DNA from: Microglena sp. YARC
Taxonomy: Eukaryota > Chlorophyta > Chlorophyceae > Chlamydomonadales > Chlamydomonadaceae
Assembly (NCBI GenBank): GCA_022414725.1
Contig: CM039462.1
Coordinates: 75,676,304 to 75,740,303, forward strand
Direction: 5' to 3'
Length of the DNA stretch: 64,000 nucleotides
The position numbers and the translations under genes were made by a program. Shown here in pieces: positions 27,873 through 61,874 of this stretch; the first letter of the stretch is position 1; each line of letters starts with the position of its first letter. Below the pieces are notes generated by a model. The model was not told the origin of the DNA. It ran no database searches and saw only the letters and a program-made list of their open reading frames with translations.

Positions 27873-28860
27873 GCAGACAAATTAATCTCAAATTACATCG
27901 GGACACGTTTTTTAACTTGCAGACATGGGTTGTTCTGGGGGACTCCAAAATCTGCATAATGAGACGCAACTGGTTTCAAATCTGCATCTGCGTCTGCGAC
28001 GCAGCGGACCCTCCAAAATGTATGTGCGACTCGCAACACACAGCGTGCAGAGCACCCCTGGTAGCGTCTACACTACCCATGTTTACGCTGCTCGCAGAAG
28101 CGCAGGGAGCGAGCTACCTGCAGGCTGATAGACCATGTACTGGCACAGGTAATCAATCCGAAATCCTGTAATGACATGTAGCTGGATAGAATGGGCATGT
28201 ATTCCAATCTACCATACAGGGCCAAAATAATTAAGTTCGCCGATAGTGGCCCAGCAGAGACCTATGCAGGTGCCATCATGATCTCATCCAGTCATCCAGT
28301 TTTATTCAGAACGCTGCGTCTTGCGTCACATATTTTTGAGGGTCTGGTGCATCTCAGAGGGTCTCGGAGCATTGCAGACACATATTTGGGGTCATAAACG
28401 CTGATTTGGTTGCGTCTCGTGAAGAAGATTTGGTGGTCTCCCTAAACAACCCTGATCTCATCTACCACTTCAACTGTTCAACATACCATTAACCTATTAC
28501 AAGATTACATTGTAGTACTTGATCTCATAGTCTCATCTATCACTTAGACTGTTGAATACACTTTTCATCAAGTAAAGTATAGTGTACTACTTGACCTCAG
28601 ATCCTCCGCCATTTTCTTGCGGTTTGCCGGGGACCAGATTTGAAAGTGCTTACTCACATGCTTTAGCCCCTCAAGACAATTTATAATTATCTTGATTATT
28701 TGAGGCAGGGAAAGTCCCTTTAACCTAATTAACTACCCCCTGGTCTGCAAAATACATACTATGCATTTATAGCACCTCCAGCAACTCAATACCCCCAGAA
28801 CTGCTGCCAGCCTAACCCCCTCAGCCTACAGCTATCGTCAGGCCTTGAGTGGGATGAAAA
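26440..28860. other. No gene seen; TIR element ends and (CAGA)n
   Basis: (CAGA)n lies at 27843-27876. Decayed ends of the CCAGGGTTGTTC element family occur at about 27925-28060 and 28305-28455 (GGTTGTTCTGGGGGACTCC; CAGCGGACCCTCCAAAAT; AACAACCCTGAT). The remainder is featureless. Confidence 0.5.
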
Positions 28861-29388
28861 TTGTACTGCAACAGTACTTCAGCTCTTAAATGCTCTCCCA
28901 GATGTCTGAGTGCACCTTCACCCCTTGGGCTGCATGAAAATTGTACTGCTGTAGTACTGCAGCTCTACAATGCTCTACCAGATGTCTGACAGTATATCCT
29001 CAGCCCTTGGGTTTCATGCAAATTGTACTGCAGTAGTACTCCAGCTCTTTAATGCTCTCCCAGATGTATGAGTGCACCTTCACTCCTTGGGCTGCATGGA
29101 AATTGTACTGCAGGAGTACTTCAGCTCTTTAATGCTCTCCCAGATGTCTGACAGTGCTTCCTCAGCCCTTGGGTTCCATGCAAATTGTACTGCGGTAGCA
29201 CTACAGCTCTTTAATGCTCTCCCAGATGCCTGACAGTGCATCTTCACCCCTTGGGCTGCATGAATATTGTACTGCAGCAGTACTGCAGCTCTACAATGCT
29301 CTACCAGATGTCTGACAGTACATCATCAGCCCCTGGGTTGCATGAAAATCGTACTTTCATGCTCTCCCAGATGCCTGCCAGTGCATCC
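28859..29388 (-). repeat. Exon-edge array: 7 copies of the ORN terminal exon 3' part
   Basis: Seven units of about 82 bp directly after the ORN stop codon. Each, read on the minus strand, contains decayed copies of the last coding segment: GACATCTGGGAGAGCATT (DIWESI), then AGCTG.AGTACT and GCAGTACAATTT. The gene-proximal copy is the true exon (29389-29532). Present in transcript order as the 3' flank/UTR. Confidence 0.88.
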
Positions 29389-29631
29389 TCAGCCCTTGGA
29401 TTCAATAAAAATTGTACTGCGGTAGTACTGCAGCTCCTCAATGCTCTCCCATATGTCTGACAGTGCGGTGTGTGCCATAACCTTGCGTGGCGCTTTCTTG
29501 TACACGGAGGGGTACCAGCGGCGTGCAAGTTCCTGAAGGACATGGCACAGAAGTATAACAATGAATTGATGATGGTGATGGTGATGATGAAGATGACGAT
29601 GCAATGACGATTACGATGATGGTGATGATGG

Positions 29632-29668
<37 letters not shown>

Positions 29669-32600
29669 CATGGTTGCACTATCCTGGTGCCCTGCTGGAC
29701 TTCAAATGTGTTCCACTTTACGGCCTGACAGGTCTAGAATTGATGTGATTGAGTGCAATAGCGGTGTTTGTACATAAATCTTCGGGGCTGTCTTGTACAT
29801 GGAGGGATATCAGCACCGTGCCTGATAGACATGGCACAGAATTAGGATGATCGATTGACCGTGATTGAGAGCCCCCTGCCCACTTTTCCATCCCATACCA
29901 TCCCATCCCATACCCCCGCCCCTCCAAGAACCTGCCATCCCACACCCCCACCCCTCCAAGAGAGACACGCAGCGCCATGCCATCCCATACCCTGCCATCC
30001 CATACCCCCACCCCTCCAAGAAAGACACGCAGTGCCATGCCATCCCATACCCTGCCATCCCATACCCCTACCCCACCAAGAAAGACACGCAGTACCATCC
30101 CATCCCATCCCCCTACCCCTCCAAAAAAGATACATAGTACCATCCCTACCCTCATACAAGCCTCCTTAGTGGCACCATCTTCTCCTATGCGGACTGCTCA
30201 CCTTTATCGACGACACGTCAACCACACGGTAGTTGAGGTGCTCTATCAGGTCGGGCATGTACTTGAGCAAAAATGAGCGATCCATGTGGATGGTGTTGCC
30301 CTGAGGAAGTGGAGGGTTCAGGGTTTAGGGTTAAGGGAGCGCTCCATGTGGATGGAGTTCCCCTGAGGAAGTGGAGGGTTCAGGGTTTAGGGTTAAGGGA
30401 GCGCTCCATGTGGATGGAGTTCCCCTGAGGAAGTGGAGGGTTCAGGGTTTAGGGTTAAGGGAGCGCTCCATGTGCATGGAGTTCCCCTGAGGAAGTGGAG
30501 GGTTCAGGGTTAAGGGAGCGCTCCATGTGGATGGAGTTCCCCTGAGGAAGTGGAGGGTTCAGGGTTTAGGGTTAAGGGAGCGCTCCATGTGGATGGAGTT
30601 CCCCTGAGGAAGTGGAGGGTTCAGGGTTTAGGGTTAAGGGAGCGCTCCATGTGGATGGAGTTCCCCTGAGGAAGTGGAGGGTTCAGGGTTAAGGGAGCGT
30701 TCCAAGTGGATGGAGTTCCCCTGAGGAAGTGGAGGGTTCAGGTTTTAGGGTTAAGGGAGCGCTCCATGTGGATGGAGTTCCCCTGAGGAAGTGGAGGGTT
30801 CAGGGTTTAGGGTTAAGGGAACGCTCCATGTGGATGGAGTTCCCCTGAGGAAGTGGAAGGTTCAAGATGCAGGGTTTAGCGTTTAGGGTGTGATCCATGT
30901 GGATGTGTTTCCCCGAGGAAGTTGAAGGTTTTAGTCAGAGGGAGACGTTTGAGCACCATAGCTTTTCTTTTCAGCTACCAGCAGCAGCTTCTAGGCAGCT
31001 TCCCTGGCTTGCTACCCAGCAAAACCTAAAGCAACGTTGTAATTCTTAAAGCTGATAGAATCATATTTATAGTTATGTTCAAATTTTAGGGCTTTGCCCA
31101 GTTGCTGGCTCAGGGAGCTGCCTAGAAGCTGCTGCTCAAAGCTGAAAAGACAAGTTCTATGCAGTGTCTCAAGCGACACTAAAAACTGGCGGAGAGTGTT
31201 TGCAACGGAGCGACAGGTGGTAACGGAAGCGATTTAGTTACGAGACTGTTTGCTGACGTGCCAGGCTTATTTTCCGTCAGACGGTCACACGCACAGACGG
31301 ACAACGGGGTGACCCTGGGGGCCCCCGTCCGCCCGTCAAAGAGGGGGCTCACCCCAAAAGCTATGGTGAGCACACATTATCAGGGTGGTCAACATCGTTC
31401 TGGTTCCAAAATCATTGTATGATATAATATATGATATCGTACGATATATCATACAATATATTTATTGCACAAAAACGATATATGAGACAATATATATTGT
31501 CATATCGTACGACATTGTACGATACATCATACAATATATATTGTACGGAAAAGTTCGATGTATGACACAATATATTGTCATAGAATACAACAATGTACGA
31601 TATATCATACCATACACATCCACAATATCGTACTTGACAACCATGCACATGATGAAGTTTCCAACAACGTAAACAGAATGAGTGGGAAATATTTTTATGT
31701 ACATTAGAGTGTCTAATCAGAAATGGAGCAAAGCAAACGGTGGATACTAATATATGTACTTCACACAGCACCATCATCATCACATGCCAACACATTGTAC
31801 TTCACACAGCACCATCATCATCACGTGCCAACACATTGTACTTCACACGGCACCATCATCATCATGGGCGAACACATTGTACTTCACAAGGCACCATCAT
31901 CATCACGTGCCAACACATTGTACATCACACAGCACCATCATCATCACGTGCCAACACATTGTACTTCACACAGCACCATCATCACGTGCCAACACATTGT
32001 ACTTCACAAGGCACCATCATCATCACGTGCCAACACATTGTACTTCACACAGCACCATCATCATCACGTGCCAACACATTGTACTTCACACAGCATCATC
32101 ATCATCACATGCCAACACATTGTACTTCACACAGCACCATCATCATCACGTGCCAACACATTGTACTTCAAACAGCACCATTGAAATCACGTGCCAACAC
32201 ATTGTACTTCACACAGCACCATTGTAATCACGTGCCAACACATTGTACTTCACACAGCACCATCATCATCACGTGCCAACACATTGTACTTCACACAGCA
32301 CCATCATCATCACGTGCCAACACATTGTACTTCACACAGCACCATCATCATCACGTGCCAACACATTGTACTTCACACAGCATCATCATCATCACATGCC
32401 AACACATTGTACTTCACACAGCACCATCATCATCACGTGCCAACACATTGTACTTCACACGGCACCATCATCATCATGTGCCAACACATTGTACTTCACA
32501 CAGCACCATCATCATCACGTGCCAACACATTGTACTTCACACAGCACCATCATCATCACGTGCCAACACATTGTACTTCACACAGCACCATCATCATTCA

Positions 32601-35600: not shown

Positions 35601-36682
35601 AAATACATGTGCGCGTAGCTGACACAATTGCACGAAAGGTGGGCCAGACAGAATTCGATTCCGAGCATTTTGGGGCATGTACAGCTCTGTACCACAATCT
35701 TGTACCAACTTAGGGCGTTTTGGGACTTAGGCACCTATGGAGATACATCAGGAGGAGCCCAGGCCTAAAAAAAATCAGTCATGTCGATCGATTTTTTCTG
35801 AGAACAGGGCTGTAATCACATGTTTCATGGCGATATTTAAAGTTACTTTTCAGGCCATTCTGAGCACCTCATTTAGGGGGGGGGGGGGGGGGGGGGGGGG
35901 GCAGCCCTCATTTTGTTTTTGCTAACGTTTTACTCTGCCCTCCAAACAAATGACGTTCTGAGACCACCCATAAGTAGGCCTTGGTAAGGGTAGTCTATTG
36001 GCACCACTTTAGATCTCATGCAATAAGTATTTACCCCCCCAAACCCCCCTCCTCAAACCCCAGCCCAGCCCAGAGTATGATTGGGTGAATGGCTGCGTAT
36101 TTGTTGATAATATGGGTGGGTGAATGGGTGGGTAATATGGGTAGTCTATTGGCACCACTTTGGACCTCGTGCAATAAGTATTAACCCTCAACCCCAAACC
36201 CCAAACCCCAGCCCAGCCCAGCCCAGTCCAGAGTATGAGTGGGTGAATGGCTGGGTATGGGTTGATAATATGGGTGGGTGAATGGGTGGGTAATATGGGT
36301 GAGTATGGGTGGGTGAATGGGTTAGTGGGTATATGTGTGGGTGGGGGTGGGGGGGTATGTCCCCAGCCCCCCCCCAACCCAACCCAACCCACACAACCAC
36401 CGTGCGACAACACCGAAACGCCGCCATTCTCCCACGTTCTACGCGTTTGCTTTCTCTTCGTTGCGGTATGCCTGATGCTGATAAGAACTCCAGTTTGGGG
36501 CCAGCCCTTGCAAAGGTGAAGGGTGACTACGGTACTTGGGCAACCCAGAGGGGGTGCAGAACTGATTTTTGACTATCACACAATCCCTATGTGGGAATTC
36601 CGAGGATGCCATTATGTGCGCCATACTGTCAACCCCCAGAATCCATATCTAAGTTTTTCAAAAGGGGGTTATTTATATTTAA

Positions 36683-36721: not shown

Positions 36722-38310
36722 GGGGGAGAGCCCTCCCCAGGTTTTCTAGGCATGGTGTGACCTATCTTTTTTTCTCCTCCCGTGTATATATATGATATAT
36801 TGATGTATCATCGAGCATGGCCCATGCACGCAACAGATGAGCAGATCCTTACCGCAAGCTGGGCTGTGCTGCTCTTGATATGAGTGGAGATGAAGTCCAG
36901 CACTTGCTCCTCTGCCTCCGCCATGCTCACGGTGCTGCGCAACACATCAATACAAATACATGAATGGGTGCCGGTGTGTGTGTGTGTGCGTGCAACCATC
37001 AATAGGGGGGAGGGGGGGTGGGGTGGGGGGGGGGGGCTGCCAACCCCCTGTCAGTGCTGCAGTGCTGCGCAATACAAAAATACATGAGAACATGAATGGC
37101 ATGCCTTATTACGAGGCGTGAGGTTGAGAAGGCCAGCCCGCTTGCTGTCACTGGGGCCAACCACTAATAGGGGTGGGGGTGGGGGGGGCTGTCAACCCCC
37201 TGGCAGTGCTGCACAATAAATAAATAAATACATAAATAATTAAATAAATAAATAAATATCTCCATAGGTGCCTAAGTCAGACCCTGAGTGATACGGATGG
37301 ATTGAGCCTATGCCCTTAAGTCAAAACAAAAAAGTGTTTTGCCAATAAGTTGCCCAACCACATCAGTTCAACATATAAATACTCGGATTTGGGTTTTCTC
37401 AAATGGTGGGAACCAGGTCATGTGAAACATGCTAATTTGTTACTCAAAGGTTCCCTAAGTCGATACGGGTTTTACGCATGAAGTGATACGGAGCCTATCG
37501 CGACCGAAACAAGCCATTTAAAAAGAACACTGGGTACAAATGTTGTGTAACGTCTTTCCCTGCCAGTAGTTATTACAGAAGGTCTTGGAAGGCAGTACAC
37601 AGGCAGTGCAGTTGAGTACCGACCCCAAAAACACTGATTATTTACATTTCGTGGGTGTCCTAAGTCTAGGTCAGAGCTGCGCAGCCTCAATTGAAATATT
37701 TTGGGCCTCAGGTTTGCTCTATCTTGAGATATAGCGTAGAGAGCAACTTTTGTTTTTTTTGAAATTGAAAATTCGAAATTTTCAAATATTTTTGAAAATA
37801 AATTCAAAAACAAACTTTTTATTAATTTGTCTTCAAACATCCACTTCTGAACTCAGTTTTTGTTTTGGAGTAGATCATTGAAAACACACCCTAATCCTGG
37901 GCCATGGTGTGGTAGGCCACTGGGAGGTGAAATCTTGAGATGTACAGCTATTTCAGTAGATTCCTAGGCCAAGGCTGAAGCGCAGCCTCCGACCTTGTAA
38001 TAGGGGTTTGATAAGCCTTTCTTCCCGAGGTAACTTTCTTCGGAATAGCTCGCGCGGCCTCGTATATGACTCGAAGTGGATTTGTATCACTAATTATCGC
38101 ACATCTGATGTACTGCCACCGGCCTGCCGAACAAGGCTGCTCGCGACCAGATGCGAACGCGGACGAAAAGTAGCTGCGCTCATAGCTGACACCTTCGCGA
38201 ACAATATGAGCCAGACAGAATTCGATTCCGAGCAGTTTGGGTCATGTACGGCTCTGTATCATATTCTTGTATCGACTTAGGGCGTTTTCGGACTTAGGCA
38301 CCTATGGAGA

Positions 38311-38381
<71 letters not shown>

Positions 38382-41300
38382 ACAAATAAATAAATAAATG
38401 GTACGCCTTATTATCAGGCGTGAGGTTGAGGGGTTCAGCCCGCTTGCTTGCACTGGGTCCAATCACTGATCGGGGATGGGGTGTGGGGGGCGGGGGGGGC
38501 TGTCAACCCCCTGGCAGTTCTGAACAAGACGGACAAACTGCATTGGGGTTGGGGGGTTGGGGGGGGTTGGGGGGGGGCAGGGATGGCTGGGAGGTGAGGT
38601 CCAAGGGAGGTGAGCACCAGGGTTTTGCGCAGAGCCCCCCCTTCTGGGGGGGGGGAGCCCCCATGGTCACCGCCTTGTCCAAGTGTCTGTCTGTCTGTCT
38701 GTCTGTCACGTTCCAACACTGGGCCTCGTAAACCCACTCTCCACCCTTTCAAACCTCGGATAGCTCAAACCTCACCGCCAATTGTGAAACCTCTCTCCGC
38801 CAATTTTCTGCGTCGCTTGCGACGCGCCTTGGGCTGGTTTCTAAGGAAATGAACCAGTGTCTATACGAAGCACCGTGGTGATCCTAGCAGCCTTTGGAGT
38901 GCTTCTAGCAGTTTCTTTACCCCCCAAAAATCAACCCCAAAAAGGCACTAAACTCCCATGAAGCACCCTCAATACACTAAGGTGCATAATTTAGCACTTG
39001 AGCTACAAGTGGCAACTTACAGACAAGTCCTAGGCACGTCGCAAGCGACACAGAAAACTGGCGGAGAGTGGATTCGAAATTATTGTCGAGGTTTGAGCTG
39101 TCCGAGGTTTGGAATGTTGGAGAGTGGGTTTACGAGGCCCAGGGTTGGAACGTGACAGACAAATAAACAAACACAAAATCGGACAAAGCGGTGACCCTAG
39201 GGGCTTTGCCCCCCAGAAGGGGGGCTCCGCCAAAAGCCCTGAAGGAAAGAAGAACAGCAAGGGGGGGGGGGGGGGAATGGCACGGAAGTGAGGATCAATG
39301 GTGCTCTGTAGATTCATGCATTATGTGAATGAGTATGTGTGTATGAGTGAGTGTGAGTGTGTGCGTGTGTGTATGTGTGCTTGTCCGGGGATGGGGGGCT
39401 GGGGGCTGGGGTGGAGGAGAGGGAGCATGCCTGTGTGCATGTGCATGTGTGTGCATGTGTGTTTGTGCATGTGTGTGTATGCACGTGTGTGTGCATGTGC
39501 GTGAGTGTGTGGATTGAATGGACAGAGCACCATACATAACATTATCAAGGCAAGACGATGCTAACTCTCAACTATGGAAGGGCCCCTCTGGAATAATAGA
39601 CAGGTGGCCACCTGGGTGGCCATCGGATATGATACCAACAAAAGAATGCACAAATCTGGATATAATAACATAAGGCGAGACGATTCCAAGTCTGAACTAT
39701 GGGAGTACCCCCCCCCCATAACAATGGACAGGTGGCCATCGGATATGATACCAACAAAAGCATGTACCAATCTGGATATAAGAACACAAGGCGAAAAGAT
39801 GCCAAATCTGAACTATGAGAGTGCCCCCCCATAATAATAGACAGGTAGCCATCGGATTCGATGACAACAAAGCATGCGCCTCACTAGTTATAAGAACATA
39901 AGGTGAGTCGATACCAAGTCTGAAATATGGGAGTGCCCCCCCCCCCCCCCCCCCCCCCCCCATAAGAATAGACAGGTGTCCATCAGATATGATACCGACA
40001 AAAGCATGCACCAATCTGGATATAATAGCATAAGGCGAGACGATTCCAAGTCTGAACTATGGGTGGGCCCCTCCAGAATAATAGACAGGTGGCCATCGGA
40101 TTCGACAACAAAAAAGCATGCACCAATCTGGATATAAGAACATAATGCGAGTCAATTCAAAGTCTGAACTATGGGAGAGCCCACCTATAATAATAGACAG
40201 GTGGCCATCGGATTCGACGACAACAAAACATGCGCCATACAAGTTGTAAGAACACAAGGTGGGGCGATACCAAGTCTGAACTATGGGAGGGCCCCCTGTT
40301 CCCACCTGTCCAACACTTTCTGAGAAAGCCCACTCTTGCCATGGTGCTCCTTGCACCACGCGTTCATGTCCTTCAGCACTGACTCATCATGGTGGATCAC
40401 AAGGGAGGGCCCTTCCAGAATAATGGACAGGTTGCCATCAGACACGATGACAGCGATCTCCAGAATCGTGTCCTTGTCAGGCTCCAAGCCTGGCACACAT
40501 GCGATGGATGAATTGTTGATACGTAGTTGCTTTGCAGGTTGGTAGGTAGTGGGGTTTCATGTTTGAATCATGAGGGAGGTCCATTCCAGAATAATGGACA
40601 GGTCACCATCGGGAACAATGACAGCGATCTCCAGAATAATGGACAGGTCACCATCGGGAACAATGACAGCGATCTCCAGAATTGTGTCTTTGTCAGGCTC
40701 CAAGCCTGACACACATGCGATAGATGAATTGTCAATAGGTAGTAGCTTTGTATGTTGGTACCTTGTTTGATTTGCATGTTTGAATCAGCATTTAGATGAA
40801 GCACAAGGAGTGTTCCTGTTTGAAATATAATTCAAATGCAGCACAAGGAGTGTTTGTGTATTAGTCAGCATTCATATGCAGCTCAAGGAGCGCTCGTGCT
40901 CGAAACAGAGTTCAAATGCAGCTCAAGGAGCGTTCGTGTTTGAATCAAAATGCAGATGCAGCACAAGGAGTGTTCGTGTATTAGTCAGCATTCGTATGCA
41001 GCTCAAGGAGCGTTCATGTTTGAATCAAAATGCAGATGCAGCTCGAGAAATGTTTATGTTTGAACCAGAATTCGTATGCAGCTCAAGAAGTGTTCACGTT
41101 TGAATCAAAATGCAGATGCAGCTCGAGGAGTGTTCGTGTTTGAATCAGAATTCAAATGAAGCACCAGAAGTGCTCATGTTCGAATCAGAATTCAGATGAA
41201 GCACGATAAACGTTCAAGTTTGAATCAAAATGCAGATGCAGATCGAGGATTGTTCCTGTTTGAACCAGAATTCTTGTACACCTCAAGATGTCCTCATGTT

Positions 41301-44300
41301 TGAATCAAAATTCAGATGCAGCTCGAGGAGTTTTCATGCTTGAAATAGAATTCAGATGCAGCACAAGGAGTGTTCGTGTATTAGTCAGCATTCAGATGCA
41401 GCTCAAGAAGCGTTCGTGTTTGAATCAAAATGCAGATGCAGCTCGAGGAGTGTTCATCACTGAATTATAATCCAGATGAAGCACAAAGAGTGATCATGCT
41501 TGAACAAGAATTCTTATGCAGCTCAAGAAGTGCTCCTGTTTGAATCAGAATCCAGATGAAGTACAAGGAGTGATCATGCTTGAACAAGAATTCTTGTACA
41601 GCTCTAGAAGTGCCTCTGTTTGAATCAGAATCCAGATGAAGTACAAGGAGTGATCATGCTTGAACAATAATTCTTGTACAGCTCTAGAAGTGCCTCTGTT
41701 TGAATCAGAATCCAGATGAAGTACAAGGAGTGATCACGCTTGAACAAGAATTCTTGTACAGCTCAAGAAGTGCCTCTGTTTGAATCAGAATCCAGATGAA
41801 GTACAAGGAGTGATCATGCTTGAACAAGAATTCTTGTACAGCTCTAGAAGTGCCTCTGTTTGAATCAGAATCCAGATGAAGTACAAGGAGTGATCATGTT
41901 TGAGCCTTAAGGTGCACCATAACTTGAAGGTCCAGGTTTTTGGCAGAGCCCCCTCTTCAAGGGGGCTTGAGCCCCCAGGGTCACCCGGTTGTCCGTGCAT
42001 GTGACCGGATGACCGTCTGACCGAGACGAAGCCTAACACGTCAGCCAACGGTCTTGTAACTAACTCGCTTCCGTTGCAACCTGTCACTCCGTTACGGACA
42101 CTCTCCGCCAATTGTTATTTATAATTTTTTCGCAATATTGTCGTGCTGCATGGTTGTTCTACATGGTGCTGTTGCATCGCTATATGATGGTACTGCATGG
42201 TTGTACTGCATGCTGTTACTGCACAGCTATATGATGGTACTGCATGTTTGTACTGCATGGTGGTACTACATAGCTATATGATGGTACTGCAAGGCATAGT
42301 TGCATCGCTATATGATGGTATTGCATGGTTGTATTGCATGGTGGTACTGCATAGCTATATAATGGTACTGCATGGCATAGTTGCGTTGCCATATGGTCAT
42401 GATACATGGTTGTACTGCATGGTTGTACTGCATGGTGGTACTCTCATATTCCACCTGTCATCTCTAGATCTATCAAAATCTCATATTCCACCTGTCATCT
42501 CTAGATCTATCCATATCTCATATCTCACCTGTCATCTCTAGATCTATCCATATCTCATATTCCACCTGTCATCTCTACATCTATCCATATCTCATATCTC
42601 ACCTGTCATCTCTAGATATATCCATATCTCATGTCTCACCTGTCATCTCTAGATCTATCCATATATCATATCTCACCTGTCATCTCTAGATCTATCCATA
42701 TCTAATGTCTCACCTGTCATCTCTAGATGTATCCATATCTTATATCTCACCTGTCATCTCTAGATCTATCCATATCTCATGTCTCACCTGTCATCTCTAG
42801 ATTTATCCATATCTCATATCTCACCTGTCATCTCTAGATCTATCCATATCTCATGTCTCACCTGCCATCTCTAGATTTATCCATATCTCATATCTCACCT
42901 GTCATCTCTAGATCTATCCATAGCTCATATCTCACCTGTCATCTCTAGATCTATCCATATCTCATGCCTCACCTGTCATCTCTAGATCTATCCATATCCC
43001 ATATCTCACCTGTCATCTCTAGATCTATCCATACCAAAGGGTTCTTCAACTTCCCCTCTTCTGCCTTCAACTTTGCAATGCTCTTCTTCACAATACGGGC
43101 TCGGTGCTCATTTAAGGCTTTCGAGTCCCTGCATCAGGCACAATCGCACAGGGGTTACAAACACAGGCGGGCAAATGAAACATACACGGGTGCACAAGTG
43201 TAACAAAGATGGGAAACAACACAGTCACACAGGGATTAAAAACACAGGTGCACAGGTGTGACAAACTCTGGTGTGGAAGTGAAACAAACAGTGGTATTCG
43301 AGCGTAACAAAGACGAGCACGTTAGTGGGATAATCACTGATGCTCAGGTGTAACAATCACTGGTGCCCAGGTGTAACAATCACTGGTGCCCAGGTGTAAC
43401 AATCACTGGTGCCCAGGTGTAACAATCACTGGTGCACAAGTGAAAGACAAGCTTGCGCTCAAGCATTGCAAACATGAGCACACAAGTGTGACAAACACTA
43501 GTGCACAGGTGTAACAAACACTAGCGCACAAGTGAGAGAAACACTTGCGCTCGAGCATTGCAAACATGAGCGCTCAGGTGTAACAAACACAGTCGCTTAG
43601 GTGTGACAAACACTAGCGCTCAAGCGTAAACAATACAGGCACACAAGTGTAACAAACATAGGAAATAACACAGGCGCTCAGGTGTAACAAACTCTAGCGC
43701 ACAAGTGCAACTAATACGAGGACACAAGTGTAGCACTCACAGGAAATTACACGGGTGCTCAGGTGTGACAGACACTAGCGCACAAGTGCAACCAACATGG
43801 GGTCTTAGGCACTAGCAACTACTGTGGTTTCAAACGTGCATGCTGCAGACATGCTGTATCATAACTAGTAACTGGCATATCATATGATGTAGACCAAAGG
43901 CGAGTATGATATCAAATGATATCATACAAATTACAACATATGATATTGTGTATAAATGGTAACATTAGCCTAGTCAGACTGACTGCATCATATGATATCA
44001 TACGATGACATGATATCATGTGATGACATGATATCACATGCGATCATATTGCCGTTCCCTAATCATAACACACTATCACACACGTCACTACCACTGCAGC
44101 AAACAAGAATGTATTACATTACATTGCATTCCATTTCATTCCATTCCGTTCCATTCTATTCCATCCCATTCCATCATATTCCATCCCATTCCATTGTCAT
44201 CGACAGGCCATTGTTGGCCCAAGGCAATCCCGCTCCTCAACACCCAGGAGGGGTCTTCCAACAAAATCCTCAGAAAATAAAGGCGACATCGAAGCAAGCA

Positions 44301-47770: not shown

Positions 47771-50700
47771 ATGGCCCTCCTCCAGAAGTCTGCTCTGCGC
47801 ACCACCTCTGCTTCCGCTCGCGGAGCTCGCACGGTACGGCATATCACCATTGCGGCAGACTGGGAATCCCCCGCGTGGGGTCCTCAGTTTGCTGGCCTAC
47901 ACCCAGCAGAAGCAATTAATAGCACTCTTAGCGCCCAAGCTCCTTTTTTTGAGCTCAACTCAGTCGATAGTTACTTCGCTTACCTCTGGGGTCCCCTCGA
48001 GTAGCAGATGCTCAGTGATGATGATGCAGACGCCCTCAGCCCATCAAGGCGGTAGGAATTGATCAGAATCTACTGCTCGGGTGCATTGCCGGCTTTTGAT
48101 TGTCGCGGAAGCGCGTTAGATGCAACGGGATTCGAAGTGGCACGATCAGCCCCAACTGACGGTCGACTTCCCCAAGCCCTCGCTTGCCGCTGCTCCCAGC
48201 TGCTCGGCCGTTGCCTTCTTCTTTCCTTCCCTTTTTATTATTCTTATTATTCTCATTGCTTGTTTATCCCCTGACTCTCATGTGGTGAGGGGCATCGCTA
48301 GTGCCCGAGACCCAGCATCGCTCGATCTCGATATATTCTCAGCGTACTCAATCCGCGTATGTCGTTCCAGCGTTTGATGCCTGTTCTCTATCTTTAGCCA
48401 CCCTAGCGAGCCCCAGACCGAGTGGGATAGAAGCCTGCAAATATGGCTGTGCCTTCCCGTGTAGATACCCGCGAGCTCACACGATGTTCTCTTAGGCTTG
48501 CATGTGATAAGGGGCTGCTCGTGTCCGATAATTAGTCACGCCCGATCTTCACCCACCCTCCTGTGTCGCTCACCCACCGATGTCGTTCCTTGGGCACAGG
48601 TCGCCAAGGCCGCTGCCGACAAGGCCGTCTGGATCCCCGGTGGCGCTTCTCCCTCCTACCTGGATGGCTCTTTGGCCGGTGACCGTGGATTTGACCCTAT
48701 GGGTCTCATGTCCGACTCCAAGAACAAGAACTGGTGAGTGGAAGGAGCCTGTTTTTGACTGAGAAGTCGTATGACCCTAGTGCATGTGTGCTGCAGGTTG
48801 AGAAGTTGTAACAGTTGTGCTCGAGGTCTCCAGCATCAATGACCCGAGTACATGTGTGTGCTGTAGTTTGTGTGTTGTAACAGCTGAGCTCCATGCCTCA
48901 AACAACAGCATCACCCCTGCAGCACGATGTACAGTTGGAGGTCCAGTTTGGTTTGTTTACATGGTACATCAGCCTTCAGGCTGCTCTCCGCTTGCGGATG
49001 GAGTACACTAATAGCATGAGCACTACCATGGCTCACTGCGGAGTAAAGAATGTAACCACATGGTTGTGGACAGTTTTCAATAGTACGCTGCTTGAGTGGC
49101 TGTTGGCCACACCTGTTCTGGGCTGGGTTACAGACGGGTCAAACCCTTGTATTCCCCTATCTCCACCCACCTCTCCCTTCACACAGTTTACAAACATGCC
49201 CAGGCCAGGGAACTGCATTTTGCCATTTTGGGTAACATGAAAAGCGTGGATGGGTTCTTGGAGTTACGAGCTGGCAGTGCTTGGCACGTAACTTCGGTTC
49301 TCTTTTTATTATCACGGTGCGCTCCTAAAGCTTACGTGCTGACACGTAAAATTGTATGTTATGTAGTACCCTGGTCCAGATCAGCAGATGGCATAGGACC
49401 AGATATTCTCAGGGACAAGGGCTGGGGGGTTTCAACGTTCCCAAGGGCCAGGCACCTGTGGTTTCTATGATACAGTGGTTGTCCCCGCCTAGCATGCAAC
49501 ACACTGTTCCGTATATTTGAGGCTTCAAGGATCCCTGTATGTGAGTTACTCAACCTGCACAGCCTCCCCCCCCCCCCCCCCCCCCCCTCCTCCTCCTGAT
49601 ATGAGTGCTTACTCCCCCTACACAGCCCCACCCCACGCTCTCCTCCTGGCATGAGTGCCCCCCCCCTCCTACACAGCCTCCCCTCCCCCCCCCCCTCCTG
49701 ATATGAGTGCTTACTCCCCTACACCAGCCCCACCCCACTCTCTCCTCCTGGCATGAGTGCCCCCCCCTCCTACACAGCCTCCCTCCCTCCCCCCCTCCTC
49801 CTCCTGATATGAGTGCTTACTCCCCCTACACAGCCCCACCCCACCCTCTCCTCCTGGCATGAGTGCCCCCCCCTCCTACACAGCCTCCCCCCCCCCCCTC
49901 CCCCCCCCCTCCTCCTCCTGATATGAGTGCTTACTCCCCCTACACAGCCCCACCCCACCCTCTCCTCCTGGCATGAGTGCCCCCCCTCCTACACAGCCTC
50001 CCCTCCCCCCCTCCCCCCCCCCTCCTCCTCCTGATATGAGTGCTTACTCCCCCTACACAGCCCCACCCCACCCTCTCCTCCTGGCATGAGTGCCCACCCC
50101 TCCTACACAGCCTCCCCTCCCCAATTGCCTTGTGCACTTCGTCCCCCTCACCTGACCTACCCCCCCCGCTCCCATCCCCCTCTCCTGCCCTCACCTGCAT
50201 ACCTCGTGCTTGTCTCACAGGATGGTCCAGGCTGAGCTGATGCACTGCCGCTGGGCTATGCTCGGCACCGCAGGTGTCCTTGTCCAGGAGGTTGTCAAGC
50301 CCGAGGTCTACTTCTACGAGGCCGGTCTGCCCCAGAACCTGCCCGAGCCCTTCACCAACATCAACATGGGTGGTCTCCTTGCTTTTGAGTTCCTCATGAT
50401 GCACTTTGTTGAGGTCCGCAGGTGGCAGGACATGCAGGTCTTCGGCTCCGTCAACGAGGTGAGGGGGTGATGTGATGGTTGAGCTAGATTTGATGGCTAT
50501 GGTGGTAATGGTACATGTAATGGCAGTTGTGATAGTGAGTGCATAGGGTTGAGTTCCGCAGCTGGCAGGACATGCATGTCTATCGCCCAGTCAACGAGGG
50601 AAGGTGGTGGTGGTGGGGATAGATATAAGATGGTGGTTGTGTTGGTGGCTGCAGAGGTTGGGATGGTGGACGCAGTGGTTAGGATGGTGGGTGTATTGTG

Positions 50701-53512
50701 TGGAAATCTGTAGGTCGCAGGACATGGTGGTCTTTGGCTCCGTTAACGAGGTGAAGTGGTGGTGGGGATGGATAAGAGATGGCGGTTGTGAAGGTTGGGT
50801 TGGTGGGTGCAGTGGTTGGGATGGGTGGTGGAGCAGGTAGTTAGGATTGTCACAGAGGGGAAATGCTGTATGAAAGAACTGACTGACTGAAATAAGTGAT
50901 GTATGTATGTATTATACAGTCCTGGGGAGGCCAAACAATAATAATTAGGGACTTGCCCAACTGTGATAGGAAGGGCTGAAAAGAAAAAGCATGAAAGCAT
51001 GAAGGAAGTGGTTTTTAATTAACTATGCTGCCCTGTCTTCTCCTGTGCTTGCAATCATCCCTTGATGGCATGCTTGCATCGCTTATAGCTCTGCAGGCAC
51101 ATGAGCCTCCAGAGATGACTGCTGACTCAGAACTGCACCCTTCTCTCTGACCAGCCTTAGCTGAAGTCTTCATCAACCAACTCTAGTTCAATTCTCAGTT
51201 TATCATTATGCAATTTCCTATCCTCAGAGTGAGTGGCTACCTTAAACAAGCTAAGTCACTTTCCTATCGTAAATGTATGCCCACACAAACCAACACACTA
51301 ATACCCTCCCTGACCCCCCCCCCCCCCCCCCCCCCCCCCCCATACTCACACAAACACAAACACACATAAACCAATACCTCCTTGATCCCCCCCCCCCCCC
51401 CCTCCCCCTAAGACCCACGCACCCACGAAAACCAACACAGCTAAGTGACTCTCCTATCCTAAATGTATGCCCCCACCGTCCCCCAATGCAGGACCCCATC
51501 TTCAAGGGTAACAAGGTCCCCAACACAGTTATGGTAAGTTGAGGCATAGTGGGACACAATTATTGTTTCCTGTACTGATGGATGATGTTGGGAATGGTCA
51601 AATGGATGGTGTCAAGTCTGATGAGAATGGGTGTTTCGTTGTGGTTTGGGGCCGGACGTTCTCCGCCCATTTGCATGCATGCTAGCTAGCTACGTAAAGT
51701 CTATCAGTCAAAGCTGATGTGGTTCAGCGCAAGGAGGTGTACAATACTCTGGCTTCTTTTGTACAGCTGATTTGGTTGGCAAGAAGATGCGCAAGATATG
51801 ATTTCATCACACTGTGTAGGGTTTAGGGTCGAGCGCATCAATGTGTGCAGGATATGTCTAGGGAATGGCAGTATGATATCATGTCATCATATGGTGCATG
51901 CAGTCTGACTAGGCTAAAGTCACCATTTATATCGAACATATTATGATGCAATTTGCATGATATCATACTCGCCTTTGGTTAACATCATATGATGTGCTGG
52001 TCCCTAAAGATATGCCTCATTGTATAGTGCAACACTATCAGTGTTGTAAGTGAGGAAGTGCTGGAGACTGATCACATCCTGCCTGTCCTCGGTTTTGGGG
52101 TGTGTGCTATGTTAGAGCCCTTTGTGTTAGCTGTTTAGGGGCAGAACAGCTGCTAGTAGCACCTCAAAAACTACTTGGGATACCATTGTACGGGATAATA
52201 TGATGGCACCTATTCCTTTCCTCTAAAAACCCTGCTGACCTTTCTTGCCTGTTTATGTTGAAGATACCTCGGAGGAGTCTTCTACCCCCTGGGCTTTGGC
52301 AAGGGTGACATAACAACTACCACCATCAGACAAACCCCACCCACCACCAACACCAACCACTACCATCCATGTAGGGATACCCCGGAGGAGTCTTCGACCC
52401 CCTGGGCTTTGGCAACAGAACAACCACCAACTAACTACTCCCACCCACCACCACCACCAACCACTACCATCCATGTAGGGATACCCTGGAGGAGTCTTTG
52501 ACCTCCTGGGCTTCGGCAAGGGTGACACAACAACAACCACCAACAAACAACCCCCACCCACCACCAACAACTACTACCATCCATGTAGGGATACCCCGGA
52601 GGAGTCTTCGACCCCCTGGGCTTCGGCAAAGGTGACATGAAGACCATGCAGACCAAGGAGGTGAAGAACGGACGCTTGGCCATGATTGCCTACATGTCCT
52701 TCATCATCCAGGCCCAGGCAACTGGAAAGGGCCCCATCGCATGCTTGAACGAGCACCTGGCCGACCCTTTCGTCGCCAACATCACTAAGAATATTGGAAC
52801 CTGCACGGTACCATCCTCCATGGACGTCCAGGGCGTCGCCATCCCCCTCTCTGTGAGTACAGCATAGGTGCACCTGAACCTTCATGTGCCGATTACAGGG
52901 TGCCCCCCCCCCCCCCCCTTGAAAGTTCTTACCCAGGCCCTACCCTAAACACTGGTCCTATCCAGCTGTGTATGTACCTATCACCAGAAGTTGTACCAGG
53001 GCATGGCAGCGCTACTTGTTGGGGGGGGGGGTGGGAGGGGGGATAGATTCTAGTGCACATTTTGTGGCTGTTTGAACTTGAACTTGTTAACATGACTCCA
53101 GGCTGCTCGCTGTCTTCAGCTGTAACATAACCAAATCAAAGCATTGTAGTGGCTGTTCGATTGTGTGTGTGCCTGGACATAGCTATGTGAAGCCGGACTG
53201 CTAGTAAGGACTGTAGGTGCTGGCCATATCTGTCCTTGTGGCTGACTGAGTCATATTTGGAATGTGTGACGCTTCACCGCATTACCAGTGTCCATCTAGT
53301 CTGAATCAGTGACCATTGCCATGAGCCATTCTGAATCTCCGAATGTTCTTGTTGCTCATGTCTCATTTTCCCTTGCCTGCCCCCCTGAGTGGCCCGGACT
53401 GCCCCCACGCCTAGCTACCCATCCCACCACCTCAAAACCGGGCCACCCAACCGCATTCTAACCTGCTCCCTCTCTCCTCCCTTCGCAGTGCCTGTGGCCT
53501 GGACATGCTTAA
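47771..53512 (+). CDS. LHCI-type chlorophyll a/b-binding protein, six exons
   Basis: Thylakoid antenna protein delivering excitation energy to a photosystem, most likely PSI. Exons: 47771-47833, 48600-48733, 50221-50458, 51492-51533, 52589-52852, 53489-53512. All introns are GT-AG, the phases agree, and the product is 254 residues. Residues 1-21 ([14 protein letters not shown]) are a transit peptide. [24 protein letters not shown] N-domain with FDPMGL precedes helix B (E71, H74, R76 in [10 protein letters not shown]). Helix C follows with E122, then [15 protein letters not shown] and helix A (E183, N186, R188 in EVKNGRLAM), with Q200 and H215 as further expected pigment ligands. The C-terminus is IPLSCLWPGHA, its last seven residues on a 24-nt exon. 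The Lhca assignment rests on overall motif pattern; a prasinophyte Lhcp is less likely. Decayed copies of exon edges lie in introns 3 and 4. Confidence 0.95.
49556..50115. repeat. C-rich minisatellite in LHC intron 2
   Basis: Four to five units of about 115 bp: CCTCCTGATATGAGTGCTTA, CTCCCCCTACACAGCCCCAC, TCTCCTCCTGGCATGAGTGC. C runs vary in length. Each unit has two CTACACAG acceptor-like motifs upstream of the true acceptor TGTCTCACAG at 50220. Confidence 0.9.
50545..50756 (+). repeat. Exon-edge copies: LHC exon 3 3' end, two extra copies
   Basis: The end of exon 3 (GTCCGCAGGTGGCAGGACAT ... GTCAACGAG|GTGAGG) recurs decayed at 50549-50600 (TTCCGCAGCTGGCAGGACAT, donor lost) and 50700-50756 (TCGCAGGACATGGTGGTCTT ... 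GTTAACGAG|GTGAAG, donor kept). Confidence 0.88.
51310..51420. repeat. Poly-C tracts in LHC intron 3
   Basis: C24 at about 51317-51340 and a second run at 51387-51400, in a CCAACAC/CACAAACC repeat of about 85 bp that precedes the 42-nt exon 4. Confidence 0.8.
51865..52000. mobile_element. MITE with ATCATATGAT-rich ends (copy 2, inverted to 43865)
   Basis: TATGATATCATGTCATCATA ... CAGTCTGACTAGGCTAAAGT ... TGATATCATACTCGCCTTTG ... CATCATATGATGT, the reverse order of the copy in ORN intron A-B. In LHC intron 4. Confidence 0.55.
52262..52588 (+). repeat. Exon-edge array: LHC exon 5 acceptor and first codons, three extra copies
   Basis: The exon 5 start GGATACCCCGGAGGAGTCTT ... GGCTTCGGCAA.GGTGACA recurs at 52262, 52375 and 52479, spaced 104-112 bp before the true start at 52589. 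The last two copies include the complete acceptor CCATCCATGTAG|GGATACC. The spacers share CACCCACCACCA and ACCACTACCATCCATGTAG. Confidence 0.93.
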
Positions 53513-55410: not shown

Positions 55411-55414
55411 TGGG

Positions 55415-56492: not shown

Positions 56493-56518
56493 GAACACTA
56501 TTCTCGGAGACAGGCACC

Positions 56519-57536: not shown

Positions 57537-57569
<33 letters not shown>

Positions 57570-57573
57570 ACAC

Positions 57574-57607
<34 letters not shown>

Positions 57608-60050
57608 TATTGGTGGTTGGCCCTAGTGCAGGCAAACAGGCTAGACTCCTCAACCTCACGCCTCGGAATAAGGCATACTATTTATTAATTATTAGGGTAT
57701 CTCCCCCAAGCTGTTCCGTGTTTTCTTCTTCTTAGGCATATTGGGAGAAGCTAAGTTGACTTGAGAAGGGGGCACTTACATGAGGTTCCACACACAGTGA
57801 CGCAAGTGCCGGCGGGTGCATCCTGTTGGGTTTGGGTTTGGGTTGAGGGTTGGGTTTGGGTTGAGGGTTGGGGTTGGGGTTGGCGCTGGGGTTTGGGTTT
57901 GGGTTTGGGTTTGGGGCTGGGGTTAGGTTTAGAGTTGGGGTTGGGGTTGGGACTGGGGTTAAGGTTGGGGTGATCGTAGTATTACTGATTTGCAGACAGT
58001 GGAAGACAAAACACAAGGCTGGCTGAAAACATGATGGGTGGCAACAATCCATATACCCAGCTAATCAAGCACACACGCATGCACCCACACAGACTAATTA
58101 TGACAAGCAAGACCAGCGCAACAAGGATCCCTAAAAGGCATGATGGGTGGCAAAAGACCACACACCTACATAGATCACATGCGTCCACCCATCCGCTCAC
58201 ATCTACCACTCAGTACATATATTATATTGCTGTTCAATGGAAGGGCTCGCCCTCAGTCGTTTTGTCGTCTGGACAAATTTTGAACAAAAGGGCTCACACT
58301 CGGTCGTTTTGTCGTCTGGACAAATTTTGAACAAAAGGGCTCACACTCAGTCGATTTGTCGTCTGGACAAATTTTGAACAGTTGTTTTACAATTTTTACA
58401 CTAAGAGAAAGGTAAGATACAGGGTTTAAAAACCTATTACACTGCTGTTCAATCAAGTTTGGCTAGATAGCCATGCAGGGGAGCTTCCTAGAAGCTGCTG
58501 CTCGTAGCTGAAAAGAAAAACACCGTTTGTAGAAAAACACAGTTTCTTTGCTGCCACTTGCAACGCTCCATGCTCGCCTCAGCCTTTTCTCCCTGCTACT
58601 TCCAAGTGCGTACTCTCACATACAAGTCCCCTAGTCAGTACCACCACCAGCATCACTGCCACTTGACACTCACCATCCCCACACTGGCAACATCCACCTG
58701 CTACTTTTAAGAAGCAACCTGGAGCGACCCACAAACACGCCCCTGAATAAGCACTACAGATGCACGACTTTTATAAACACTGGTGGTGCTTGGCTTTACC
58801 AGCACTGGTGATACTTAAGTACACACCAGCATCAGCATAAGATTAAAGCATACTATTTCTATCTGAACCACATCTCTCTGTGAATTCATAACACGTACTC
58901 TCATATTGACACATACAAGCCCTAACATCAGTACGCTAATAAAAATAAAAAAGTCATAACATCAGTATACTAGCAATCAACATAAAAAGCCATGACATCA
59001 GTACACTAGCAATACACGTTAAAAATCATAACATCAGTACACTAGCTGTACACGTTAAAAAATCGTAACATCAGTACACTAGCAATACACATTAAAACGT
59101 CATAACATCAGTACACTGATCAAGTCACATCCTCATCATCATCATCCTCATCCTCATTACCGCCATTAGCAAGCACACAATCATCACATTGGCAACACCT
59201 CCCTGCCAATATGAAGTACACACCCATGTTGACATGTACAGCCCCTATGCAAGTACCAGTTAGTATCACCGCCATTAGCAAGCACACTATTCTCACCTTG
59301 GCCACACCTCCCCGCTAATACGAAGTATGTACACACATGCTGACATGTACAGCCCCTATGCCAGTACCAATCAGTATCACCGTCATTAGCTAGCACACTA
59401 TTCTCACCTTGGCCACATCTCCCAGTTTCTTCAGCATCTTCTTGGAGGTGCACACCCTCTCACACACAAAGTTTGGCGCGTTCCAATCTTCAAGGCTATC
59501 AGAACAGCTGTGGGCGGGTGCATGTGTGGGAGTGTTTGTGTGTGTGGGGGGGTGAGTGCATGTGTGTGTGTGCGTGCGTGTGTGGGAGTGTGGGAGTGTG
59601 TGTGTGTGTGTGTGTTTGTGTGCGCACGTGGGAGTGTGTGTGGTGTATGCGTGTGCGTGAATGTGTGTGGGTGCGTGCGTGTGTGGGAGTGTGTGGGTTT
59701 GTGTGTGTAGGTGCATGTGTGTGGGAGCAGTGCTAATTGCATATGGGTGCGTGCGTGTGAGGGAGTGTGTGGGTTCGTGTGTGTGGGTGCATGTGTGTAG
59801 GAGCAGTGCTAATTGCATATGGGTGCGTGCGTGTGTGGGAGTGTGTGGGTGTGCGTGTGTGGAAGAGGGTGCGTGTGTGTGGGTGCATGTGTGTGGGAGC
59901 AGTGCTAATTGCGTGTGGGTGGATGCGTGTGTGGGAGTGGGTGGGTGGGTTTGTGTGAATGTGGGTGCGTGTTTGTGTGTGGGTGCATGTGTAGGCGGGT
60001 GCGTATGTGTGAATGCAGTGCTAATTGCATCTGGGTGAGTACGTGTATGG

Positions 60051-60081
<31 letters not shown>

Positions 60082-60894
60082 TGGGTGGGTGGGTGAGTGT
60101 GCATGTGTGGGGGAGCAGTGCTTATTGCATGTGGGTGGATGTGTGTATGGGTGCGTGTGTGTGGATATGTATGGGAGCAGTGCTAATTGCATGTGGGTGT
60201 ATTTGTGTGTGTGTGCGTGTGTTCGGGAGCAGTGCTAATTGCATGTGGGTGGATGCGTGTGTGGGTGCGTGTGTATGTGGGTGCATGTGTATGTGTGCAT
60301 GTGTGTGTGCATGTGGGTGGGAGCAGTACCAATTGCATGTGGGTGGATGCGTGTGTGGGTGCGTGTGTGTGTCAGTGTGCATGTGTGTGGGAGCAGTGCA
60401 AATTGCATGTGGGTGGATTCGTGTGCGGGTGCGTGTGTATGTGTGCATGTGGGCGGGAACAGTGCTAACCGCATGTGGGTGCAAGCTTGTGTGGGAGTGT
60501 GTGCCTGTGTGTGTGGGAGTACAGCATGAGCAAAAAACCCTGCTTCCAATACCGAGTCTTGAAGCATATGCGCATTCATTCTATTTTAATCACCATGCTG
60601 TGAATCATCCCTCGCATGAGGATCCATCCATGTCTTCAACCCCCATGATTCCAATACTGGGACAAGAAACATGTCTGCATTCTTCGTACTGCAGTCACCA
60701 TGCTGTGAAGCATCCCTGGCATTAACAGCCATCCGTGTATTCTCACCCCGTGATTTCAACACTTGCGCTTGAATCATGTGAGCATTATTCACTGCTTACC
60801 TTGCATCATCGTCCTTTTTACCCCTAGAGCTGATGAACCCCTTGGCCACCACCAAAGGAGCTGCCGCTACTACTGCCCACCACGGCTGGACCAT
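56519..60894 (-). CDS. Small cysteine-rich, N-terminally anchored protein, four exons
   Basis: Exons in transcript order: 60894-60800, 59507-59408, 57822-57780, 56646-56519. All junctions are GT-AG, the phases agree (2, 0, 1), and the product is 121 residues. An in-frame TAG lies upstream of ATG 60894. Residues 3-20 (QPWWAVVAAAPLVVAKGF) form a hydrophobic segment, a signal anchor or thylakoid/inner-membrane helix, followed by a basic/acidic linker RGKKDDDA. The soluble part carries 11 cysteines in CxC/CxxxC-like groups: VCERVC, GTCVTVCG, ADACADACQRAVC and SCMRKCTSEC, with PAWNESC near the end. The pattern suggests a disulphide-rich or metal-binding fold. I recall similar uncharacterised proteins in the green lineage but cannot name the family. 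Divergent from the PYROXD1-like gene, about 980 bp apart. Exon 2 has tandem copies of its 3' edge. Confidence 0.82.
57528..57690 (+). repeat. SINE-like repeat with C33 tract
   Basis: GGGGGATGACAG then C33 (57537-57569), (CA)n, GGTGGTTGGCCCTAGTGCAG and CAACCTCACGCCTCGGAATA, ending TATTTATTAATTATTAG. The C run is at the same place as shorter C runs in other family copies. Confidence 0.6.
57825..57975. repeat. GGGTTT/GGGTTG repeat abutting the exon 3 acceptor of the Cys-rich gene
   Basis: About 150 bp of six-base units; on the sense (minus) strand a CCCAAA/CCCAAC tract that directly forms the pyrimidine-rich side of the acceptor CCCAACAG|GATGC. The plus strand has G-quadruplex potential. Confidence 0.85.
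58235..58385. repeat. 56-bp tandem repeat, three units
   Basis: AGGGCTCACACTCGGTCGTT then TTGTCGTCTGGACAAATTTT, three near-identical units in intron 2 of the Cys-rich gene. Confidence 0.9.
58910..59125. repeat. Minisatellite ACATCAGTACACTAGCAATA
   Basis: Five to six units of about 38 bp with CATAACATCAGTACACTAGC. Confidence 0.9.
59160..59407 (-). repeat. Exon-edge array: exon 2 3' end of the Cys-rich gene, two extra copies
   Basis: On the minus strand the true edge GGGAGATGTGGCCAAG|GTGAGA (donor at 59407) recurs as GGGGAGGTGTGGCCAAG|GTGAGA 111 bp downstream and as GGGAGGTGTTGCCAATGTGAT about 110 bp further. The spacers share TGTGTGCTTGCTAATGGCGG and AGGGGCTGTACATGTCA. Confidence 0.9.
59515..60520. 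repeat. GT-rich minisatellite with GGGAGCAGTGCTAATTGCAT units
   Basis: About 11 copies of GGGAGCAGTGCTAATTGCAT joined by (GTGTGGGTGC)n spacers, filling intron 1 of the Cys-rich gene right up to the exon 2 acceptor. Origin from the exon edge is possible but not clear. Confidence 0.88.
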
Positions 60895-61590
60895 CACTGC
60901 CTTCTGATCAAACTTAGAAGGTAGCTAAAAGCTTGGAGTTATGAACTTGCTCGTGAAGAACAGGCCCAGAAGAGCAAGTGTCGCGTAGGGGAGAGCGATA
61001 AATCGGAATATTTAAATCCAGGCGCTCGCTCTTAGGTACTTTAGATATGGCAAGCAACAATAATCAGTAGGAGGAATAGGGGCGAGAAGTTTTTCTGAGG
61101 CACTGGCGTTGCTCATAACTCTAGATCATCAGCAACCTGCGTCAGTTTCTGGCGAACCGCAGGTACAAGTGGCAATACGGGAACCAAGCGGAAAATACGT
61201 CCATGGCAGGTCAGCTGCTCATGTTGCGAAGCGCATTCGGTAGATCAGAATTTCAGCTGCTCTTAGCGTTCCTCATCCTTTCTTTTCTGGTCTTGGGCTC
61301 TTGTCCGAAAGCCATTTGATAGCAGTCGGGTTGGCAACAATCCTCCTTATCCTTGAGATCTCCCATTCCCAATTTTACCATCTCTCGTTGCCTTTCTTTG
61401 CCCCTGCTCTATTCTTTTCATCTAATTGTTCCATTCGTTCTTGAATTGGTGGAAGCAGCTGAAACTCCTTTACACAAGGAAAGCATGTGTTCAAGCATGC
61501 AGGCATGCAGAAAATAGGTCACCAGGCGATGCTTGGGGGGGCTGGATCCACGACTCTATAGCAATTGGTGGCTAGCTTGCTGTCTGCAAC
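60895..61590. promoter_or_regulatory. Divergent intergenic region between Cys-rich gene and PYROXD1-like gene
   Basis: About 700 bp that must hold both promoters. AATATTTAAATCC at 61006 is the only TATA-like stretch noted. No ORF of interest. Confidence 0.35.
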
Positions 61591-61874
61591 TTATTTATTT
61601 GCTTGGCTGATGCTGCTGGTGCCGATTACCCTGCAGCCTAGATCTGCATGGTGAATTCCGTTGTCTTCAGAGGAGAATTTGCTGAATATTTATTTGTTTG
61701 ACTGCTGCTGCTGCTGCTGCTGCTGGCTATTAGCCTACAGTCTAGATCCCCATGGCGAATTTCGTTGTTCGAGGAGGGATTGCTGGATAAACAGCAGTGC
61801 ATGAGCTTAATCGGCTGTACCCTCACAACTCCATCAGTCTCATGTCTGGCTATTAGCCTTCAATCTGGATCCCT
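61590..61874 (+). repeat. Tandem decayed copies of the PYROXD1 start region
   Basis: Two upstream copies of the first codons. At 61649 ATGGTGAATTCCGTTGTCTT, and at 61754 ATGGCGAATTTCGTTGTTCG then GAGGGATTGCTGGATAAACA; the true start at 61875 is ATGGTGAATTTTGTTGTCGT. The second copy extends to ATGTCTGGCTATTAGCC, about 115 bp of homology. The preceding (CTG)n spacer and TTAGCCT.CA.TCTGGATCCC leader are also repeated. Confidence 0.88.

Follow-up and report, generated by a model that had tools for sequence, protein, structure and literature searches.

The 64-kb window analysed here (C1:75676304-75740303 of Microglena sp. YARC; positions below are counted from its first letter) holds four unrelated genes in which the sequence beside an exon is a tandem array, with units that carry the end of that same exon. 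These are ORN, with six exons on the minus strand, the LHC gene Lhca5, a Cys-rich gene and a PYROXD1-like gene. Together with 230 kb of flanks the window makes up the 294 kb that were examined; it was selected for its arrays, so counts in its genes do not come from an unbiased sample. We found that the exon-edge arrays are real, and that they are intronic minisatellites of a striking form. Recurrent local duplication has copied exon ends into introns and lengthened them, as an earlier note on this DNA had proposed; it did so independently in unrelated genes, and it recurs in the flanking genes. Unselective short tandem duplication, combined with selection on exons, probably explains most or all of these arrays.

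Gene models were rebuilt before any edge test. The six ORN exons join as a single open frame of 255 aa, and the 170-aa piece from exons C to F matches solved oligoribonuclease structures over residues 2-166. A EukProt protein, P0121, is 100% identical to ORN over 97% of the 255 aa and its junctions coincide with those of ORN from exon A/B on. At least five exons make up Lhca5; identity to its relatives reaches 71% among the at least 120 matches listed, the best named of which are green algal. The weakest model is that of the Cys-rich gene, built from a reading of frames and splice sites. PYROXD1 is the name given by the earlier note to the fourth gene, in which a Pyr_redox_2 domain was found. 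To locate copies, every exon was taken together with its flanking sequence and compared by blastn with the 3.5 kb on each side of it (a shorter stretch for PYROXD1). The exons and arrays are as follows.

44822..44961, minus strand: ORN exon A; start codon uncertain, P0121 differing at the N-terminus
43010..43128, minus strand: ORN exon B; the 37-bp unit consists of the final 24 bp of the exon, with codons around WIDLEMTG, followed by 13 bp of intron; junctions agree with P0121
42442..42996, minus strand: 15 repeats of the exon B donor unit within the intron, 37 bp each
40564..40787, minus strand: copies on the acceptor side of exon C; 40630-40787 spans the splice site at 85% identity
40306..40489, minus strand: ORN exon C, from the joined frame
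39576..40222, minus strand: array next to the donor of exon C, period 112-116 bp
36853..36934, minus strand: ORN exon D, from the joined frame
30301..30930, minus strand: exon E acceptor array, 10 copies of 62 bp with 55-bp variants
30202..30300, minus strand: ORN exon E, from the joined frame
29784..29858, minus strand: single decayed copy of the exon F acceptor, 73% identity, 44 bp of exon
29389..29532, minus strand: ORN exon F, with the C-terminal helix and stop codon
28834..29388, minus strand: 82-bp array that derives from the end of exon F holding the stop codon; the step nearest the exon is shorter, 63 bp
50221..50458, plus strand: Lhca5 exon 3
50548..50764 (50548-50612 and 50692-50764), plus strand: decayed copies of the Lhca5 exon 3 donor, GT kept in 1 of 2
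52263..52527, plus strand: three upstream copies of the acceptor end of Lhca5 exon 5, spacing 104-113 bp
52589..52853, plus strand: Lhca5 exon 5; 3' end uncertain
59408..59509, minus strand: Cys-rich gene exon 2; acceptor end by inspection only
59156..59312, minus strand: two copies of the Cys-rich exon 2 donor, spacing 109-111 bp, 16 bp of exon
61620..61851, plus strand: start region of PYROXD1, copied twice upstream
61875..63504, plus strand: PYROXD1-like first exon, with Pyr_redox_2; 3' end not established

Tandem copies of exon ends had been claimed at eight sites, and blastn finds edge-crossing copies at all eight; the exon F acceptor copy is a ninth. The donor array of exon B comprises 16 units when the exon's own is counted, with GT intact in 16/16. 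Units of the exon E array consist of the acceptor's upstream intron sequence and up to 26 bp of exon, and so carry the acceptor with codons of the GNTIHMDR stretch; AG is kept in 9 of the 10 copies. The unit at exon F includes the stop codon along with the C-terminal helix. That a unit contains the exon's own end holds at the edges named, and fails for the donor-side array of exon C, where six alignments of 35-52 bp cover mid-exon sequence only (within 40401-40452) and do not include the edge. No edge copies of exon D were found by blastn. The repeated stretches are part of an enzyme whose relatives occur in widely separated organisms, so the ORN copies derive from the exon and not the reverse. 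Across the exon B array the pairwise difference measure was 0.042 for the exon-derived part vs 0.14 for the intron part, a contrast from which we make no claim because the copies are related through a higher-order repeat.

Three further features were observed in the ORN introns. The exon E repeat unit (30275-30864) includes a telomere-like stretch, CCCTAAACCC, beside the acceptor, which is perhaps a repair insertion that was later amplified. A 41-bp satellite of about 64 copies with 96% matches occupies 31755-34382 and is open in several frames. Two copies of a 1.05-kb element, 74% identical to each other (34702-35745 and 37258-38312), lie in the D-E intron and have 25-bp inverted terminal repeats; by its sequence the element looks like a DNA transposon.

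Spacing had been described as constant, which does not hold for Lhca5 exon 3, with spacings of 140 and 152 bp. At the PYROXD1 start the nearer copy is spaced at 123-126 bp, and the next follows after about 104 bp. The outermost of the three Lhca5 exon 5 copies aligns without the splice site, and a third copy of the Cys-rich exon 2 donor, at 63% identity, accompanies the two clear ones. The PYROXD1-like exon itself holds in-frame coding arrays with periods of 60, 18 and 54 bp (62117-63348).

Edge copies recur outside the window. The gene for zeta-carotene desaturase (ZDS), at C1:75771305-75782278 and 31 kb beyond the window, has 12 exons and a translation equal to the EukProt protein P0241; its best named matches are green algal, and the Dunaliella salina enzyme is only 66% identical. 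ZDS was met in a coding-potential scan in which it already showed decayed copies of two exons, and it was chosen since it could be identified. Edge-crossing copies were found by blastn at 10 of its 22 splice edges, and a test with exonic seeds gave copies at 7/24 edges. The same seed test gave 1/3 edges in AIRS and 0/2 in SAMDC, for which certain edges only were used; the cyclin, ARC6-like and pfkB genes had ambiguous edges and did not enter the counts. Edge copies are thus present in five of the six multi-exon genes tested (ORN, Lhca5, Cys-rich, ZDS and AIRS; SAMDC, with two edges only, lacks them), and at the PYROXD1-like start. At ZDS exons 5, 6, 8, 9 and 12 the nearest copy lies at a shared spacing of 149-164 bp; units 5, 6, 8 and 9 were compared and have no common sequence.

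We then characterized the units. They are arranged head to tail and measure roughly 10 to more than 100 bp in Tandem Repeats Finder (TRF), as in minisatellites, and they are local to their genes: of the 14 tested, 13 match nothing else in the 294 kb, and the remaining one has a match of 28 bp. Within the 294 kb, the statement that this is not an introner pattern accordingly stands, units having no sequence shared between genes. Copies decay as neutral sequence. Splice dinucleotides (GT or AG) are intact in 45/55 copies against 42.8 expected, and in 17 of the 26 decayed copies against 17.5; at ZDS exon 11 none of four copies keeps the dinucleotide. Identity is 0.887 for exon-derived and 0.872 for intron-derived parts, and coding selection on the copies, a candidate that we considered, is unsupported because the two parts are equally alike. 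At 21 edges the duplication boundaries lie 11-110 bp into the exon, with no preferred phase detected and no fixed distance from the splice site. As a fraction of the unit, exon overlap is compatible with a uniform distribution (16 units of at most 170 bp, Kolmogorov-Smirnov P = 0.63, or 0.27 with ORN F at its 63-bp step); this test drops the 5/21 edges with larger shifts, and its units and overlaps were transcribed by hand from blastn alignments.

Arrays are a general property of these introns. They hold 47.2% of 2288 intron positions in the window genes, against 8.6% of 874 intergenic positions, and 52% of intron positions in ZDS. Grouped by distance to the nearest exon edge, their share is 40.6% (0-100 bp), 53.2% (100-200 bp), 50.2% (200-400 bp) and 49.1% (400-700 bp), and farther out 27.2% (700-1200 bp), 42.9% (1200-2500 bp) and 100% (beyond 2500 bp, 155 positions); array density in the window genes does not rise toward exons. 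Among low-copy arrays in the 294 kb, 41 have a period of 60-160 bp and 4 a period above about 160 bp, two of these apparently being multiples of shorter units. With simulated two-copy units, TRF found those of 140 bp in 47-83% of trials and those of 280 bp in 47-67%; detection falls only somewhat up to 350 bp, and its loss therefore does not account for the drop above about 160 bp. All three coding arrays with a period of at least 12 in modelled exons (TRF) are divisible by three, against 2 or 3 of the 16 edge units.

Whether exon edges are over-represented was asked in several ways. Pooling ORN, LHC, Cys-rich and ZDS, and omitting gene ends, PYROXD1, AIRS and SAMDC, blastn found a copy that crosses the edge, in the nearest 1.6 kb of intron, for 17 of the 44 splice edges. 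Outward copies at random intron points give an expectation of 20.05, so there is no excess. With 30-bp exonic seeds, 7/32 edges scored 20-30 where shuffles averaged 8.7; most of the exon-edge copies thus stand far above chance, with the ORN F acceptor and Cys-rich exon 2 at 14. These two, together with the ZDS exon 5 acceptor and the ZDS exon 7 edges, are blastn matches that fall below a seed score of 18. At a score of at least 18, copies were found for 7/32 edges, for 11 of the 468 seeds placed mid-exon and for 29% of the 400 non-coding seeds drawn from the gene region; in ZDS, 8/104 mid-exon seeds had one. Edges are therefore far commoner than mid-exon seeds, which is what purifying selection predicts. 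Omission of uncertain ends (the LHC exon 5 3' end, the PYROXD1 3' end and both ends of an mTERF gene) reduces the 32 edges to 28; when these were shifted rigidly, the one-sided count of 7 compared with 8.1 +/- 2.4, and 70% of shifts were as high. The ZDS seed test (7/24, conditional rate 0.28) likewise gave no excess. The proposal that the process acts at exon borders thus finds no support in the comparison with intronic seeds, the very one that the earlier note had named as refuting if edges proved no commoner: it gave 7/28 vs 8.1 and 17/44 vs 20 within the 294 kb. That the exon-proximal copy is the intact one is a consequence of selection and uninformative about origin.

Based on these results, it appears that introns here would grow through short tandem duplications, mostly of units below about 160 bp, landing anywhere; the duplications would then expand and decay as minisatellites, with the exon copy held by selection while outward copies drift. 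A duplication within an exon would persist only where the frame is kept. Exon-edge satellites would be the edge-straddling share of this general process, tolerated because the intact exon-proximal site still gives normal mRNA, and selection would act as a filter on the duplications. The unit size resembles the length of a nucleosome or an Okazaki fragment, which suggests lagging-strand slippage or the fill-in of staggered breaks, and one or the other may be the molecular step.

Several observations weigh against so unselective a process; an excess of edges survives only under nulls that count terminal copies. Under a conditional null (a terminal copy, with no inward copy), the pooled 17 edges exceed an expectation of 11.2 (P = 0.035); split by source, ZDS gives 10/22 (rate 0.341, P = 0.18) and the window genes 7/22 (P = 0.06). 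Rigid shifts of the 28 edges gave 7 terminal copies against a mean of 1.87, matched in 1/666 shifts, and at a score of 14 gave 9 against a mean of 2.2 with no shift as high, both before correction for array expansion. For seeds at score 18 the conditional rate in introns is 0.138, with 5/22 splice edges observed against 3.0 expected (P = 0.18) and 7/28 for all edges (P = 0.08). Over the choices of threshold, filter and edge set, conditional P ranged over 0.02-0.25 vs introns and 0.007-0.08 vs the whole gene region, and was at most 0.0005 vs its intergenic part. A toy simulation of uniform births (20-35 births) yielded a mean of 1.6-2.7 edges of 22, with at least 5 in 2-13% and at least 7 in 0-2% of runs, where the window showed 5 by seeds and 7 by blastn. 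Two further points are that 5/21 edge copies are shifted by 216-436 bp, counter to a strict size cap, and that the frame rule draws on three arrays, each of them in the PYROXD1-like gene.

Two considerations bear on how the conditional excess is read. The conditional null supersedes both the first seed comparison and the first terminal null, because expanded arrays inflate the denominator. In addition, a selected exon copy would make older duplications recognisable, and where the exon is wholly unchanged the gain could reach about twofold. An assumed gain in detection of 1.25- or 1.5-fold would raise the pooled P to 0.20 or 0.54, and slow decay of the selected copy could yield the excess seen under the strict null. 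The simple comparison thus gives exon edges no excess, and the strict one a weak excess. We do not claim a hot spot, because conservation would aid the detection of old edge copies and the window was chosen for its arrays.

The strongest competitor is a process targeted to exon borders, in which hot spots of breakage or slippage, arising through R-loops, nucleosome positioning or splicing-linked DNA damage, copy exon ends into introns. The conditional count and the rigid-shift terminal test favour it, as does the report that across 31 species tandem repeats lie toward intron ends, especially in two green algae (PMC3887541). It is nevertheless unlikely: no one-sided excess was seen, and none in the ZDS seed test; window genes lack an array gradient toward exons; the exon overlap of 11-110 bp shows no phase preference; arrays also occur deep in introns and within coding sequence; and the window was picked for having them. 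In its fullest form edges would be true hot spots, perhaps 1.5 times other intron sequence, mostly capped near nucleosome or Okazaki length, with transcription, splicing or chromatin driving intron growth by copying splice sites outward, and we regard this form as doubtful.

Regulatory function is less probable still. Arrays that serve as alternative or decoy splice sites could explain why each of the 15 copies of the exon B donor in the ORN intron keeps GT, and why AG is kept in nearly all exon E acceptor copies, but dinucleotides are retained at the neutral rate over the 55 copies and at none of four in ZDS exon 11, the EukProt ORN and ZDS proteins use the intact exon, and only 2 or 3 of 16 units have a length that is a multiple of three. 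Slightly less credible still is intron gain, the birth of introns from tandemly duplicated exon segments under the Rogers model. Exonic segments with an adjoining GT or AG are indeed tandemly repeated at intron ends; the units, however, hold intron sequence past a single splice site, amounting to 13 of 37 bp for ORN B and 36 of 62 bp for ORN E, so that in these cases the intron predates the duplication. An assembly artefact is highly improbable: the near-identical 37-bp and 62-bp arrays are difficult to assemble, but many arrays have individually differing copies (70-90% identity), and they sit in a 195-Mb contig.

Other candidates were rejected. Chance similarity is excluded by the shuffles for strong sites. 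A dispersed element or introner is excluded within the 294 kb, 14 units having no sequence common to genes. Whole-exon duplication, including mutually exclusive exons, fails as no alignment spans both edges of an exon; the nearest approach is ZDS exon 7, with 58/61 bp and one edge. Tandem exon duplication with mutually exclusive splicing places copies of exon sequence side by side; unlike it, the copies here are partial exons with one edge, in neutral decay.

The earlier judgement that no described element behaves in this way is too strong in view of related repeats reported in green algae, human and potato. Chlamydomonas and Volvox have the top tandem-repeat density in introns, concentrated toward intron ends (PMC3887541); high intron density and repeats toward intron ends are alike, whereas units with an exon end and splice site, found here at 17/44 splice edges, are not described in the part of that paper available. 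Human genes in segmental duplications carry tandem repeats at exon-intron boundaries (PMC2812944), again tandem units at boundaries and able to alter splicing; there, variable repeats change exons and introns of recent paralogues, whereas here single genes have decaying copies on the outer side of an unchanged exon. In potato, a tandem duplication crosses an intron-exon boundary of a working gene, in a paper that also reviews the Rogers model (PMC4974935); that event made a new intron, whereas here an existing intron is lengthened and no new intron was identified. End joining of breaks with protruding ends gives tandem duplications in mouse cells (PMC5730883), short and without special sequence as here, but from induced breaks. 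Among the literature matches listed, serial decaying exon-edge copies are not described as a regular feature of introns.

With unselective duplication filtered by selection as the probable explanation, each exon serves as a selected reference beside its own drifting copies, which allows intron growth to be followed and put in order for one gene after another. The arrays also amount to a natural experiment in splice choice: the B-C intron of ORN has 16 near-identical donors and the D-E intron 10 near-identical acceptors with intact AG. Among these repeated sites the EukProt protein model of ORN uses the exon-proximal one alone, which is consistent with that site being the one used. The weak edge excess, if genome-wide, would indicate a duplication hot spot linked to gene structure.

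A search for related loci in viral contigs found none. Elsewhere in the window, a single open frame of 462 aa has an mTERF domain at 23311-24699, and a Copia-type retrotransposon lies at 16038-20861, with RVT_2, an integrase core and a weak gag match under its cut-off.

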